Assembly (NCBI RefSeq): GCF_006738645.1
Contig: NZ_AP019700.1
Coordinates: forward strand, 4,508,001-4,572,000
Length of the DNA stretch: 64,000 nt
Direction of reading: 5' to 3'
Source: Stella humosa
Lineage (GTDB): Bacteria; Pseudomonadota; Alphaproteobacteria; ATCC43930; Allostellaceae
The notes below the pieces were generated by a model that saw only the letters and a list, made by a program, of their open reading frames with translations, was not told the origin of the DNA and ran no database searches. A program made the translations under genes and the position numbers. Below are positions 25,026-30,970 of the stretch, piece by piece (position 1 is the stretch's first letter; every line of letters begins with the position of its first letter).

Positions 25026-25898
25026 CTACCGCAGGTACCGCTCCTCCTGCGCCTTCATCTCCGCCACGCCCTGCACCGCGAAGACGCGCTCGGTCGGGGC
25101 GATGGCGCCTTCCACGCCCAGCACGCCACCGTCCGCGCGGATGCGGCGGAAGGTGTCGGTCAGGGCCTGGGTGATCGCGCGCACACCATGGTTGCCGTAG
25201 ATGACCAGCTTCACCTTGCCCAGCGCTCGGATGCGTTCCTCGGTCATGTCGGGATAGGCGGTGGGCACCAGGACGAGCGGAATGGTGCCGTCCCAAGCCT
25301 CGACGAAAGCGACGATCTCGTCCGGGGTCTTGCGCTTGGAGTGGATCAGGATAGCGTCCGCACCCGCCTTCTCGTAGGCGCGCGCCCGCATCAAGGCCTC
25401 CTCCTGGCCAAGGCCGGCGATCAAGGCCTCGGTGCGGGCGATCACCAGCAGATCGGGATCGCGACGGGTTGCCACGGCGGCCGCGATCTTGCCCTCGAAC
25501 TCGGCCACGCGGACCAGTTCCTGGCGGCCGCCGGCCAGCAGGCTGGTGTCCTTGGGAAAGGTCTTGTCCTCGATCACCAGGGCTGCCACGCCGGCCGCCT
25601 CATACTGGCGGGTGGCGTGGATGACGTTGGTGGCATTGCCGAAGCCCGTATCGATGTCGGCCACCACCGGGATGCCGATGGCGGCATCCATGAAGCGCGT
25701 CATGTCGAGATGCTGGGTCATCGTCACGATGCTGGCGTCGGGCACGCCCATGGCGGCCGACAGCTCGAAGCCGCTGGCCCAGATGCCGTCGAAGCCGGCC
25801 TCCTCGGCCAGGCGGGCGCCCAGCGGGTTGTGGGCGCCGATGATGGCGGTCAGCGGCTTCTGCGCCAGCTTGGCGCGGAAGGTGGCTCGCTTGGACAT
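25026..25898 (-). CDS. pphA: phosphonopyruvate hydrolase
   Basis: Member of the isocitrate lyase/PEP mutase superfamily predicted to split phosphonopyruvate into pyruvate and phosphate. It is 290 residues, the length of the characterised Variovorax Pal2 enzyme as I recall it. Active-site residues line up: D54, D81, D83, E110, K116, R155 and H186. The discriminating residue in EDKTFPKDTS is T118, where PEP mutases have Asn, which fits hydrolase rather than mutase. The start is the ATG giving MSKRATF, with GAGGA upstream. Last gene of a minus-strand series with an acyl-CoA synthetase 19 bases upstream. No transaminase or phosphonate transporter is in view. Confidence 0.82.
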   Translation of the reverse strand: MSKRATFRAKLAQKPLTAIIGAHNPLGARLAEEAGFDGIWASGFELSAAMGVPDASIVTMTQHLDMTRFMDAAIGIPVVADIDTGFGNATNVIHATRQYEAAGVAALVIEDKTFPKDTSLLAGGRQELVRVAEFEGKIAAAVATRRDPDLLVIARTEALIAGLGQEEALMRARAYEKAGADAILIHSKRKTPDEIVAFVEAWDGTIPLVLVPTAYPDMTEERIRALGKVKLVIYGNHGVRAITQALTDTFRRIRADGGVLGVEGAIAPTERVFAVQGVAEMKAQEERYLR

Positions 25899-25917
25899 GG
25901 GGCAATGGTCCTCGGGT

Positions 25918-27537
25918 TCAGATCTTGCGGGCGTGGCCCTGCCAGTAGCCGGCACGGACGAGATGGCGCTGGATCTTGCCCGTCTCCATGCGCGGCAGGG
26001 TGGCCACGAAATCGACGCGGCGCGGCACCTTGAAGTCGGCGATGCGGCCGCGGCAGAAGGTGCGGATCTCCTCGGCCAGCGCCGGCGAGGCGGCCTGCCC
26101 CTGGGCCAATTGTACGACGGCCACGACCTCCTCGCCCCATTCCTCGTTGGGGGCGCCGACGGTGGCCACGTCCTGCACGGCCGGGTGCTGGTGCAGGACG
26201 GCGTCGATCTCGGCCGGGTAGATGTTGACCCCGCCCGAGATGATTGTCTCCGCGCTGCGGCCGGACAGGAAGAAATAGCCCTCAGCGTCGGTGTAGCCGA
26301 CATCGCCCATGGTGAACCAGTCGCCGGCCCAGGCGGCCGCCGTCTTGGCCTCGTCCTTGAAGTAGACGAAGCGCTTCTCGGGCGCGGTATAGACGAAGAT
26401 GCGGCCCGACTGGCCGGGCGGCAGCGCGCGACCGGCCTCGTCATGCACCTCGACCTGGCAGCCCTCGGCCGGCCGGCCGATGCTGCCCGGGCGGGCCAGC
26501 CACTCGTGCGAGTCGATGAATGTGCCGCCGCCCTCAGTGCCGGCGTAATATTCGTAGAGGACCGGCCCCAGCCAGTCGATCATCGCCTGCTTGACCGCGG
26601 GCGAGCAGGGGGCGGCCCCATGCAGCACCCAGCGCAGCGACGACAGGTCGTGGCGCCGCCGTTCCGCCTCCGGCAAGGCCAGCAGGCGGTGGAACATCGT
26701 CGGCACGACGTGGGTGTGGGTGATCCGGTGGCGCTCCACCAGCGCCAGCGTCTCCTCCGGCGACCATTTGTCCATCAGGTGGACGCCGACCCCGTTGTTG
26801 AGCGGAAGCTGCAGGTTCAGCCGCAGGGGAGCCGCGTGATAGAGCGGCCCCGTGTTCAGCGCCAGGTCCTCGCCCGGGCGGATCGCCGCCGACTTCAGGA
26901 TCGCCGCCAGCAGCTCTAGCGGGGAATGGATGCGATGCACGCCCTTGGGCCGCCCCGTCGTGCCCGAGGTGTAGAGCATCGACGAGCCCAGCACCGGGTC
27001 GTCGATGTCGCCCGACGGCTGGCCGCCCAGCGCGCGGTCGTAGGATTCGAAACCGGGCAGGCCTTGGCCCAGCGCCAGCTTCGTGGCATCCGGCAGGACC
27101 GCCGCCAGCGCGCCGGCAACGGCGGCAAAGCGCGGGTCGGCCACCAGCACCTTGGCCTCGCAGTCGCGCACGACATAGGCCGCCTCGTCGGCCACCATGT
27201 GCCAGTTGAGCGGCGTCACCCGGAAGCCGGCGCGCAGGCCGGCATAGATGACCTCGACGAATTCCGGGCGGTTCGGCGCCAGGAGGGCGATGGCGTCGCC
27301 CGGCTGCAAGCCGCGGCCGCGCAGGAAACGGACGAGCTGGTTGCAGGCGGCGTTCAGCTCGCCGTAGCTGCGCCGGCCGAGCGGCCCGTCGATGGCCAGG
27401 CGAGAGGGCGCCTGGGCGGCATGGACGGCGATGTGCATGCCGGTCTTGGCCGCCTCCGCCAGCGGGCTGGCCGGCAGCGCGGAGGCGGGCTGGGATGCAG
27501 TAGCCGGGGCGGCCTGGGGCGTTTCTGTCTCGTTCAT
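25918..27537 (-). CDS. AMP-forming acyl-CoA synthetase
   Basis: ANL-superfamily ligase of 539 residues activating a carboxylic acid through an acyl-adenylate to a CoA thioester. Phosphate loop YTSGTTGRPKG (about residue 180), hinge motif GDVGYTDAEGYFFLSGR, and the C-terminal catalytic Lys in METGKIQRHL are all present. The start is the ATG giving MNETETPQ, with GGGAGGG upstream; longer forms are unlikely. The acid is unknown. Its position between a GNAT/TPP enzyme pair and phosphonopyruvate hydrolase suggests a small catabolic set. Confidence 0.88.
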   Translation of the reverse strand: MNETETPQAAPATASQPASALPASPLAEAAKTGMHIAVHAAQAPSRLAIDGPLGRRSYGELNAACNQLVRFLRGRGLQPGDAIALLAPNRPEFVEVIYAGLRAGFRVTPLNWHMVADEAAYVVRDCEAKVLVADPRFAAVAGALAAVLPDATKLALGQGLPGFESYDRALGGQPSGDIDDPVLGSSMLYTSGTTGRPKGVHRIHSPLELLAAILKSAAIRPGEDLALNTGPLYHAAPLRLNLQLPLNNGVGVHLMDKWSPEETLALVERHRITHTHVVPTMFHRLLALPEAERRRHDLSSLRWVLHGAAPCSPAVKQAMIDWLGPVLYEYYAGTEGGGTFIDSHEWLARPGSIGRPAEGCQVEVHDEAGRALPPGQSGRIFVYTAPEKRFVYFKDEAKTAAAWAGDWFTMGDVGYTDAEGYFFLSGRSAETIISGGVNIYPAEIDAVLHQHPAVQDVATVGAPNEEWGEEVVAVVQLAQGQAASPALAEEIRTFCRGRIADFKVPRRVDFVATLPRMETGKIQRHLVRAGYWQGHARKI

Positions 27538-27613
27538 GGACCGCCCTCCCAGCGGCGGGGCCATTCTGCTCGGGCGCGGGGGGCCGAGGCAAGGCACCCG
27601 CCGGCACGATCGC

Positions 27614-28066
27614 TCAGGGCAGCGCGCGCTCCATCAGGATCTCACGGCCGATCATGCCGCGCTCGACGAATCCGGTCGAGCGATAGAGGGTGATGGCACC
27701 CGCATTCTCTGGGTGGACGCCGATACGGACGGTGCCCCGGGTTGGCCAGGAGGCCCGGATAGCGGCCAGCGCCGCCAGCACGGCGGCGCGGCCATAGCCC
27801 CGCCCCTGCCGCCGCCGGTCGATCATCAGGCGATAGATCCAGGGGCACGAATCGTCGCGGTCCAGCGCCCACATGACGAACCCCACCAGGGCCGGGCCGC
27901 AGCGCACCGCGCGGGGCACGCATTCCGGCAGGGCATAGGCCAGCGCCAGCGAGGTCGCGTTGTCGGCCACGAACCGGCGCTGGTCGCGCGCGGTCCGCAG
28001 CGCCAGGACGTCGTCCAGATTGTCGCGGCTGATCGCCTCGAGTTGGATCGCCGGGGGTCGCCTCAC
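27614..28066 (-). CDS. GNAT family N-acetyltransferase
   Basis: 150-residue single-domain acetyltransferase. The acetyl-CoA pyrophosphate loop is RRRQGRGYGRAA (about residues 84-95). The Asn/Tyr of the C-terminal part is in HPENAGAITLYRSTGF, with Tyr a possible general acid, as in spermidine acetyltransferase-like enzymes. Its ATG overlaps the stop of the thiamine-diphosphate enzyme (ATGA), so translation is coupled. Substrate unknown. Confidence 0.88.
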   Translation of the reverse strand: MRRPPAIQLEAISRDNLDDVLALRTARDQRRFVADNATSLALAYALPECVPRAVRCGPALVGFVMWALDRDDSCPWIYRLMIDRRRQGRGYGRAAVLAALAAIRASWPTRGTVRIGVHPENAGAITLYRSTGFVERGMIGREILMERALP

Positions 28067-29667
28067 CCGCGCAGCGCCAGCATCTGGTCGAGATAGCCGT
28101 CGGGCGCCACGGCCGCGTCGACCAGGGCCGGGCCGGTGCCCGCGAACGCCGCGTCGAGCGCTGCGCGATAGCTGGTGGGGTCATCCGCGCGATAGCCACG
28201 CACGCCAAGGCCACTAGCGACGGCGGCGAAATCGACCGCCCCCAGTTCCACCCCGTCGCGCCGCATCTGGCGGTGCTGCTGCTTGATGTCGATGAGCGAC
28301 AGGGATCGGTCGTTGAAGACGACGACGACGATGCGGGCACCCGTCTGGGCCGCAGTCGCCAGTTCGCCCAGCCCCATGGCCAGCCCGCCATCGCCGGTGA
28401 AGGCCACGACCGGCCGGTCGGGCTCCGCCAGCGCGGCACCGATCGCGGCCGGCAGCGCGAAACCCATGGTCGACAGGCCGTTGGAGATCAGGAGGTCGCG
28501 CGGACGCCGCGCCCGCCAGAGGGCGGTGGCCGAGAACATGTGCGCCCCGGCATCGACGGTGGCCCGAGCATCCAGGCCCGCCGCGTCGGCTGCCGCCTGG
28601 GCGCCCAGTACCAGGTCGGGCGGGGTCAGCCGGCCGCCGCCGGTCCAGGCGATCCGCGCCAGCATCGCCTGGCGCAGCCGGGCGATCGCATCGGCCTGCC
28701 AGCCGGAGCGGCCGGCCCCCTTGGCCAGCGCGGCCAGCGCGGCGGCGGGCGTGCCGTAGAGGCCGGCGGCCGGGTCGATATAGCGCAGGGGAAAGGGCTG
28801 GCGCGCCACCTCGATCACCGGCGCCGCATAGCGCCAGGGCTGCGGGATCAGTTCCACCGGGTCGAGGCCGGCCAGGATGATCAGGTCGGCGGCGGCGACC
28901 GCCGCCGCCTCCAGCGAGCCGCCGGTGAAGAGCCCGACATAGGCCGGGTCGTCGTCGGCGACCACGCCCTTGGCCTTGTAGGTGACGAGTGCCGGGGCAC
29001 CAGTTGCGACGGCAAAGGCTCGGACGGCGGCTGCCAGCGCCGGGTCGGCGGCGGCCTCCAGCCCGCACAGCAGGATCGGCCGGTGGGCGCCGGCGACCAG
29101 GTCGCGTGCGGTCGCCAGGGCACCCTCGTCGGTCGCTTCGGCAGCGAATGGGATCGGCTCGGCCGCCGCCACGTCGCGGCGCGCGGCATCGCCGGTCACG
29201 TCGAAATGGACGACGCCGGCCGGGGCCGCCATCGCCCGGTCGAGCAGGCGTTCGACATCGTGCCCGGCATCTTCGCCGTCGAGCCGGCTCGACCCCTTGG
29301 CGATCGGCGCCAGCAGGGCCGAATGCTCGAAGAACTGGTGGCTGACGAAGCGGCGATGCTCGGGCGTGAAGCCGTCGGAGATGACGCAGAGCGGCGCCCG
29401 CTCCAGTGCCGCGCAGGCAATGCCGTTGACGGCGTTGGCCAGCCCCGGCCCCCGCGTGGTCAGCACCACGCCGGGCGCGCCCGTCACCTCCGCCGTGGCA
29501 AGCGCCATCAGCGCCGCCCCGGTCTCGTGCCGCGCCAGGACGAACTCGATGCCGCAGGCCGCCGCCGCGGCGATCGCATCCAGGCTGGTCTCGCCCCCGG
29601 GCACGCCGAAGATGCGGCGGACGCCGCGGCGGGAAAGCGATCGGATCAGCGCATCAAGAGGGGTCAT
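28063..29667 (-). CDS. thiamine-diphosphate-dependent enzyme, acetolactate synthase-like
   Basis: 534-residue member of the TPP decarboxylase/acetolactate-synthase family. The cofactor-activating glutamate is E48 in LARHETGAALMA. The TPP/Mg motif starts FTGDGGLAMG and ends VFNDRSLS in the last third. The middle domain looks non-catalytic (FAD-like fold). The start giving MTPLDALI was used. Related groups include acetolactate synthases, sulfopyruvate and phosphonopyruvate decarboxylases. The true substrate is not decided by sequence, but a partner that cleaves phosphonopyruvate downstream makes an oxo-acid decarboxylase role reasonable. Confidence 0.85.
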   Translation of the reverse strand: MTPLDALIRSLSRRGVRRIFGVPGGETSLDAIAAAAACGIEFVLARHETGAALMALATAEVTGAPGVVLTTRGPGLANAVNGIACAALERAPLCVISDGFTPEHRRFVSHQFFEHSALLAPIAKGSSRLDGEDAGHDVERLLDRAMAAPAGVVHFDVTGDAARRDVAAAEPIPFAAEATDEGALATARDLVAGAHRPILLCGLEAAADPALAAAVRAFAVATGAPALVTYKAKGVVADDDPAYVGLFTGGSLEAAAVAAADLIILAGLDPVELIPQPWRYAAPVIEVARQPFPLRYIDPAAGLYGTPAAALAALAKGAGRSGWQADAIARLRQAMLARIAWTGGGRLTPPDLVLGAQAAADAAGLDARATVDAGAHMFSATALWRARRPRDLLISNGLSTMGFALPAAIGAALAEPDRPVVAFTGDGGLAMGLGELATAAQTGARIVVVVFNDRSLSLIDIKQQHRQMRRDGVELGAVDFAAVASGLGVRGYRADDPTSYRAALDAAFAGTGPALVDAAVAPDGYLDQMLALRG

Positions 29668-29762: not shown

Positions 29763-30116
29763 ATGCCGCCCGCCACCCGCAACCTTCTGGATCCGGGCGT
29801 CACCTCGCCCGCGGCCGAGGTGACGGAGCCCCTGCTGGCCGCCGCCGGCGTCCGGCTGGAGCGCATCCTGTCGCTGGGCCAGGCCTCGCCGCCCGGCTTC
29901 TGGTACGAGCAGGCGGAGGACGAATGGGTGGCGGTCCTCGCGGGCCGCGCCCGCCTCACCATCGCGGGCGAGCCGGCCGACCGCGAGTTCGGCCCCGGCG
30001 ACGCCATCTTCCTCCCGGCCGGCTGCCGCCACCGCGTCGCCTGGACGGACCCCGACCAGCCGACGGTCTGGCTCGCCCTGTTCATCGACGCCGCCCTTGG
30101 GGTACGGTCGACGTAA
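29763..30116 (+). CDS. cupin domain protein
   Basis: 117-residue single cupin barrel, typical of small metal-binding proteins with unknown ligands. Motif 1-like FWYEQAEDEWVAVLAGRARLT keeps a Glu but lacks the first two His. Motif 2 is GDAIFLPAGCRHRVAW with the His of the second metal site. A GAGGGGAG ribosome-binding site lies just upstream. Divergent from the TPP-enzyme gene by 95 bases. Confidence 0.82.
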   Translation: MPPATRNLLDPGVTSPAAEVTEPLLAAAGVRLERILSLGQASPPGFWYEQAEDEWVAVLAGRARLTIAGEPADREFGPGDAIFLPAGCRHRVAWTDPDQPTVWLALFIDAALGVRST

Positions 30117-30132
30117 TGACGTCATATATACT
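30116..30132 (+). promoter_or_regulatory. palindrome and -10 element of toxin-antitoxin promoter
   Basis: ATGACGTCAT, a perfect 10-base palindrome at 30116-30125, is followed at once by a TATACT -10-like box (30127-30132). The antitoxin GTG is 31 bases further on. This is the usual place for an antitoxin operator. The -35 region is not convincing. Confidence 0.4.
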
Positions 30133-30162
30133 CGCCACTTATCCGACGCAGGAGGGGCCGCA

Positions 30163-30438
30163 GTGAAGGAAGCCGTCTTTACGATGAAGCTCGAGCCCGC
30201 CTTGCGCGACGAGTTCATGGCGGAGGCCAAGGCCGTCGACCGGCCCGCATCCCAGATCATGCGCGACCTGATGCGCGATTTCATCCAGGAGCGTCAGCAG
30301 GCAAGAGAGTATGACGAATTCGTTCGCTGCAAGGTTGCAATCGCACTTGCGTCGATGGAGGATAGTGGGGGTATCCCCCATGAAGAGATCGAGGCGGAAG
30401 CTGCCGCATGGCGCGCCGAGGTGCTGAACGAGAATTGA
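30163..30438 (+). CDS. antitoxin of a RelE/ParE-type module
   Basis: 91-residue protein with an N-terminal ribbon-helix-helix-like segment (VFTMKLEPALRDEFMAEA, then RPASQIMRDLMRDFI) expected to bind the operator and a C-terminal acidic arm to hold the toxin. It starts at GTG with GGAGG seven bases upstream. A longer in-frame version would take in the promoter region. Stop TGA forms TTGA with the next gene's start. The local sequence is less GC-rich than its surroundings, which suggests transfer. Confidence 0.82.
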   Translation: MKEAVFTMKLEPALRDEFMAEAKAVDRPASQIMRDLMRDFIQERQQAREYDEFVRCKVAIALASMEDSGGIPHEEIEAEAAAWRAEVLNEN

Positions 30439-30719
30439 GAGTCGTTTGGTCCCGGGCAGCGAGCGAAGACCGGCGGACCATTCGAAACCACATCAAAGCC
30501 GACAGCCCACAAGCTGCCATTCGGATGGATGGCATACTTGTGGCGGCAGCCGGATGGTTGGCCCATCACCCGGAAATAGGCCAACCGGGCCGAATCAGTG
30601 GCACCCGAGAGTTCGTCCAGCACCCCAGCTACCGACTGGTCTACTCGGTAGAGGGCCAAATGGTCGTTGTGCTGGCCGTCATCCATACGGCGCGGTCATG
30701 GCCGCCCGGGCAAAGCTGA
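30435..30719 (+). CDS. RelE/ParE-family toxin
   Basis: 94-residue toxin of the ParE/RelE superfamily (gyrase poison or mRNA interferase; not decidable here). Typical pieces are RVVWSRAASEDRRTIRNHI near the N-terminus, GTREFVQHPSYRLVYSVEG in the middle, and VVVLAVIHTARSWP at the end. A TTG start overlapping the antitoxin stop in TTGA is favoured because the family normally begins right before this RVVWS segment. An ATG nine codons earlier (30408) is possible. The catalytic residue was not assigned. Confidence 0.82.
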   Translation: MRVVWSRAASEDRRTIRNHIKADSPQAAIRMDGILVAAAGWLAHHPEIGQPGRISGTREFVQHPSYRLVYSVEGQMVVVLAVIHTARSWPPGQS

Positions 30720-30733
30720 CCACGACGCTCTGG

Positions 30734-30970
30734 TCACGTCCGGAAGTACGGCTCCACCGTGCCCTTCAGCTTCATCGTCAGCGGGTGGCCGTGGCGATCG
30801 ACGGTCTTGCCGACCGCGACGCGGACCCAGCCCTCGCTGACGCAATATTCCTCGACGTTGGTCTTCTCGACACCGTTGAAACGGATGCCGATGCCGCGTT
30901 CGAGGAGGGCCTCGTCATAGTGCGGGCTGGCGGGGTTGTTGCAGAGCCGGTCGGGCGGGGTATCGGTCAT
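30734..30970 (-). CDS. DUF3297 family protein
   Basis: 78-residue protein matching the DUF3297 pattern of short proteins common in proteobacteria. Conserved pieces are DRLCNNPASPHYDE, RGIGIRFNGVEKTNVEEYC, and the ending MKLKGTVEPYF. Function unknown. It starts 11 bases after the gamma-glutamyltransferase stop, so it is the last gene of the aldehyde dehydrogenase-GGT unit. It faces the toxin gene across 14 bases. Confidence 0.85.
   Translation of the reverse strand: MTDTPPDRLCNNPASPHYDEALLERGIGIRFNGVEKTNVEEYCVSEGWVRVAVGKTVDRHGHPLTMKLKGTVEPYFRT

Follow-up and report, generated by a model that had tools for sequence, protein, structure and literature searches.

Does the gene for phosphonopyruvate hydrolase (PPH, PalA) in Stella humosa belong to a four-gene operon for a new metabolic route, or did some of its neighbours come to lie beside it by chromosome rearrangement? 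The DNA analyzed here, referred to as the window, is a stretch of 64,000 nucleotides (G000:C1:4508001-4572000) within a 5.83-Mb single-contig genome (G000). In the window, genes for a thiamine-diphosphate (TPP) enzyme, a GNAT acetyltransferase, an AMP-forming acyl-CoA ligase and PPH all lie on one strand (Table 1). A sequence-only reading had described them as an unusual operon and, since PPH seemed to be coupled to the three other enzymes, had suggested a new route for a phosphonate or a related oxo acid. We compared the window genome with three other Stella genomes (G001, G002 and G003), whose PPH loci are L010, L009 and L011, respectively. Genes in the neighbourhoods were called with a codon-usage gene caller (GC-rich DNA).

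Table 1 Features of the PPH locus in the window of Stella humosa
Feature	Position in the window	Strand	Evidence and remarks
PPH (PalA), 290 aa	25026..25898	-	TIGR02321 score, 2dua alignment, active-site residues
AMP-forming acyl-CoA ligase, 539 aa	25918..27537	-	PF00501, PF13193; paired with PPH in 4/4 Stella
Ligase leader, promoter-like TTGCCT-N18-CAGAAT and GGGAGGGCGG ribosome-binding region	27538..27595	-	alignment of four Stella leaders
Rearrangement junction, TPP/GNAT block versus ligase/PPH block	27595..27612		blastn homology ends, ~17 bp apart
GNAT acetyltransferase, 150 aa	27614..28066	-	PF00583; adjoins TPP orthologue in L125
TPP enzyme, 534 aa, three-domain, acetolactate-synthase-like	28063..29667	-	PF02775, PF02776, PF00205

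Identity and distribution of the hydrolase

The PPH protein passes the curated PPH model TIGR02321 with 395.3 bits (cut-off 374.4) and fails the PEP mutase model TIGR02320 with 275.4 bits (cut-off 319.55). Its top match among solved structures is the Variovorax enzyme (2dua, 366.6 bits over residues 1-290), and PEP mutase structures rank behind it with 298 bits (Streptomyces) and 231 bits. An alignment of 89 rows shows D54, D81, D83, E110, K116, T118, R155 and H186 all retained and aligned with those of 2dua; T118 is part of the motif EDKTFPKDTSL. At position 118 the PPH rows have Thr nearly throughout, with Ser in three of them (L041, L052 and L080), and both PEP mutases (1m1b and 5unc) have Asn. 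Due to the support from the curated models and from residue 118, we assign the protein to PPH and not to the PEP mutases or C-C lyases. The sequence-only reading, which had called PPH from T118 in EDKTFPKDTS together with the seven other residues, is thereby corroborated, and the identification is firm at the sequence level. In the whole genome G000, ten proteins match the PEP-mutase/isocitrate-lyase superfamily, one of which passes the PPH cut-off.

Compared with PalA of Variovorax sp. Pal2 (PDB 2DUA, 2HJP, 2HRW; TIGR02321), the window protein aligns end to end and has the same active-site residues including Thr118, while R188 is replaced by Lys, the residue also found in PEP mutases and in the majority of PPH relatives. 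The locus differs from that of Variovorax in having no adjoining palB, palR or palCDE-type transporter.

A single scan of genome contigs returned 328 relatives of PPH, and the best 80 of these 328, with 57-92% identity, were kept. In the order to which the window belongs, 11 of 43 genomes passed the TIGR02321 cut-off, all four Stella genomes among them. A review counted palA in 201 IMG genomes (PMC10574752), so that, with the 328 relatives from our scan, PPH can no longer be described as known from only a handful of bacteria. Most likely what is new here is the genus and not the enzyme, which is a known one of phosphonate salvage; Stella joins the genera carrying phosphonopyruvate hydrolase.

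Two halves of the gene row meet at a rearrangement junction

Within the row, the GNAT gene has a GTG start that overlaps the stop of the TPP gene by 4 bp, 76 bp separate the GNAT stop from the ligase start, and 19 bp separate the ligase stop from the PPH start. A generic promoter and terminator scan found nothing, including no terminator in the 76-bp gap between GNAT and ligase. Given the length of this gap and the terminator result, transcription may read through from TPP-GNAT into the ligase gene in the window strain.

The other Stella genomes show a different arrangement and agree among themselves at this point. In L009-L011, a ligase 78-91% identical to that of the window lies directly upstream of PPH, and the TPP and GNAT genes are missing from these loci. 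Orthologues of the TPP enzyme are encoded elsewhere in all three genomes (83% identity in G003, 80% in G001 and 71% in G002): at 4.45 Mb with PPH at 0.58 Mb in G001, at 0.71 Mb with PPH at 4.45 Mb in G003, and on a contig separate from that of PPH in G002. The orthologues share with the window their surroundings of gamma-glutamyltransferase and aldehyde dehydrogenase genes. In blastn comparisons, homology to the PPH loci L009-L011 stops at 27594-27595 and that to the TPP-GNAT locus in L125 starts at 27612, which places the junction downstream of the GNAT stop and upstream of the ligase leader.

In the other Stella genomes, an ABC substrate-binding gene lies upstream of the ligase. In the window strain, homology to this gene starts at G000 position 4,577,398, ~41.8 kb from the ligase and in the same orientation. 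The ABC transporter is accompanied in the other Stella genomes by genes that by eye are PhyH-like and Gfo/Idh-like, and it keeps these neighbours ~42 kb away in the window strain. For this reason we regard it as no more than a candidate phosphonate importer. The arrangement is most simply explained by a segment of ~42 kb sitting between the ligase and the ABC gene in the window strain, with one of its ends between GNAT and ligase. Judging from these homology ends, the position of TPP/GNAT beside ligase/PPH is the result of a chromosome rearrangement that separates the window strain from its three relatives.

The four genes on one strand thus exist as the sequence-only reading had described them; their interpretation as an operon is not confirmed, since its TPP/GNAT and ligase/PPH halves meet at the junction. 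The four-gene neighbourhood is not kept in related genomes, and among the four Stella genomes the linkage of TPP enzyme and PPH is private to the window strain. The claimed coupling of PPH to the TPP enzyme and the acetyltransferase is not supported, because in three Stella genomes the TPP orthologues are either remote from PPH or on a different contig and the junction lies between the two blocks. The idea of a new route, which rests mostly on this coupling, loses most of its basis with it. The comparison of four genomes removes a misleading operon, half of the apparent cluster being there through rearrangement.

A further break was observed nearby, at 30101-30734, where both the L124 and the L125 homology are interrupted. 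This region holds two small overlapping open reading frames on the forward strand (30163-30438 and 30408-30719) that by eye look like a ParDE-type toxin-antitoxin pair and seem to be private to the window strain.

The ligase-PPH pair and its leader

Ligase and PPH are adjacent on the same strand in all four Stella genomes, separated by 13-26 bp, and form a tight two-gene unit. The leaders of the four ligase genes keep a promoter-like element, TTGCCT-N18-CA[G/C]AAT, and GGGAGGGCGG, with a variable spacer, and the box is placed just inside the ligase side of the junction. The window box has 8 of 12 matches to the sigma-70 consensus, a score under the threshold of the generic scan, and we therefore regard it as a conserved promoter candidate and not as a mapped promoter.

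The ligase carries both AMP-binding domains, PF00501 and PF13193. The acyl-CoA synthetase models PRK12406 and FadD4 are its best family models and cover most of its length, but it scores 438.6 bits on the first (cut-off 701) and 428 bits on the second (cut-off 850), and the other nearest NCBIfam models, acyl-CoA synthetases too, are likewise missed. Within the order, the ligase is found almost only in Stella. Outside Stella, a few Alphaproteobacteria carry relatives of it (42-57% identity) that have no PPH close by, some of them beside genes that look by eye like genes of acyl-CoA metabolism. In these data the pairing of ligase and PPH is hence confined to Stella, and most PPHs have no ligase neighbour. 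The coupling of PPH to a CoA ligase that had been proposed for the window is accordingly real as a gene pair in four of four Stella genomes and restricted to this genus. The ligase yielded no feature specific to phosphonates.

Source of phosphonopyruvate

A PalB-type aminotransferase gene lies within 200 bp of PPH in 28 of 85 loci, which is a lower bound as some PPH loci end at contig ends. No such gene was found by PPH in the window or in the other Stella loci; the nearest homologues are unlinked, and no adjacent PalB was found in the relatives from the order that were examined. The statement that the locus is without a transaminase is hence locally true, yet it describes a common state among PPH loci. 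PPH without a neighbouring transaminase is indicated as common, and therefore surveys that count palAB pairs would miss many. A survey listed 50 palAB clusters in 19,425 complete genomes (PMC8154272).

The Stella PPH falls into one group (support 94/93) with seven further PPHs that have no PalB nearby, one of which, L015, is on a short contig. Another PPH of this group, in the sister-clade locus L012, is 71% identical and has beside it, on the opposite strand, phnE and phnC, both over their cut-offs, and a gene for a PhnD-like binding protein (L012:10001-14341), an arrangement that speaks for a phosphonate role of the clade of the Stella PPH. In two metagenome-assembled genomes, a gene resembling NAD-binding dehydrogenases follows PPH on the opposite strand (L013:8900-9802 and L014:10876-11547); that of L013 has no NCBIfam match.

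The genome G000 encodes two aminotransferases with 56% identity to rhizobial PalB, one of which was scanned and is of the aspartate-aminotransferase type. Transamination between phosphonopyruvate and phosphonoalanine is documented for PnaA, a member of the aspartate-aminotransferase superfamily (PMC11867202). By analogy, the aspartate-aminotransferase-like genes of G000 could supply phosphonopyruvate. Compared with the palAB pathway, which combines the transaminase PalB with PalA, the window shares the PalA step and the PalB-like genes are encoded elsewhere, whereas its neighbourhood has no transaminase and instead a CoA ligase upstream.

Proposed role of the locus and alternative explanations

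We propose, with a probability of roughly 0.8 for the combination, that PPH is active as a hydrolase, that ligase and PPH form a unit, that the aminotransferase is remote and that the TPP enzyme and GNAT are unrelated neighbours. PPH would hydrolyze phosphonopyruvate to pyruvate and phosphate, like the Variovorax enzyme. The ligase-PPH unit is probably transcribed from the conserved leader of the ligase itself. Phosphonopyruvate would probably either derive from phosphonoalanine through an aspartate-type aminotransferase encoded elsewhere or be imported as such. The TPP enzyme and GNAT would have become neighbours on the PPH side by rearrangement, and we assign them no role in this pathway. 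An ordinary organic or fatty acid is the most likely substrate of the ligase; if so, its link with PPH would be one of shared expression and not a demonstrated shared pathway.

Several other explanations were weighed. A PEP mutase or another lyase of the superfamily would have the same fold and many of the same residues, and the match of 298 bits to the Streptomyces PEP mutase is in keeping with such an enzyme. Thr instead of Asn at position 118 and the TIGR02320 score under the cut-off speak against it, as does the lack of an adjoining Ppd-like mutase-coupling gene, which distinguishes the window from L168 of G042, a genome of the same order. There, a PEP mutase with the motif EDKLFPKTNS scores 379.3 bits on TIGR02320 (L168:3795-6634). 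With biosynthesis by PEP mutase and Ppd, as in L168, the window has in common the superfamily and, by chance, a nearby TPP enzyme; it differs in Thr118 and in its TPP enzyme, which is of the three-domain acetolactate-synthase-like type and not a Ppd. The scores on the two models, Thr118 and the difference from L168 led us to reject a PEP mutase or phosphonate biosynthesis cluster, and it is very unlikely that the window protein is a lyase of this kind instead of a hydrolase. A single operon of all four genes for a new route, in which the TPP enzyme would use phosphonopyruvate or an oxo acid resembling it, is very improbable as well. The common strand, the 4-bp overlap of TPP and GNAT genes, and the 76-bp gap to the ligase in which no terminator was found would fit such an operon, but three other Stella genomes show no linkage of TPP enzyme and PPH, and the join of GNAT and ligase coincides with the homology junction. 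Moreover, the TPP enzyme is under the cut-off of every listed NCBIfam model, and blastp against a real Ppd gave one significant piece of 35.4 bits (residues 369-522). As this similarity is confined to the C-terminal TPP domain and does not extend over the full length, we dismissed the TPP enzyme as a phosphonopyruvate decarboxylase.

The pairing of ligase and PPH could be a sign of a shared pathway. A dedicated pathway would mean that the phosphonate is first activated or that the ligase handles an acyl part, for example of an acylated phosphonoalanine or a phosphonolipid. The tight spacing of the adjacent genes in all four Stella genomes and the near-confinement of the ligase to Stella within the order are consistent with this. 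We nevertheless consider it unlikely, as the ligase has relatives of 42-57% identity with no PPH in their vicinity, the majority of PPHs have no neighbouring ligase, and the ligase shows no phosphonate-specific feature. It is likewise unlikely that the pair is a dedicated two-gene module dealing with an acid or acyl-linked phosphonate, with the CoA ligase in the usual place of palB and an undescribed entry to phosphonopyruvate hydrolysis as the outcome. Shared expression of PPH with a ligase for an ordinary acid remains our preferred reading of the pair.

Other phosphonate loci

The PEP mutase of L168 is fused to a part resembling sugar nucleotidyltransferases and adjoins a phosphonopyruvate decarboxylase, so that this is a phosphonate biosynthesis locus. 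The C-P lyase marker phnJ is present in three of the four Stella genomes, including G000, and had no match in G002. In G000 it lies at C1:2934733-2935548 within a C-P lyase region (L170:6599-12269, G000:C1 about 2,932,598-2,938,268), and its neighbours look by eye like phnG to phnM. Outside the window, G000 also holds a complete phnY-phnA-phnW set over curated cut-offs (L169:4394-8256, G000:C1 about 1,298,393-1,302,255), near which L169 carries an ABC transporter and a gene of the ICL/PEP-mutase superfamily.
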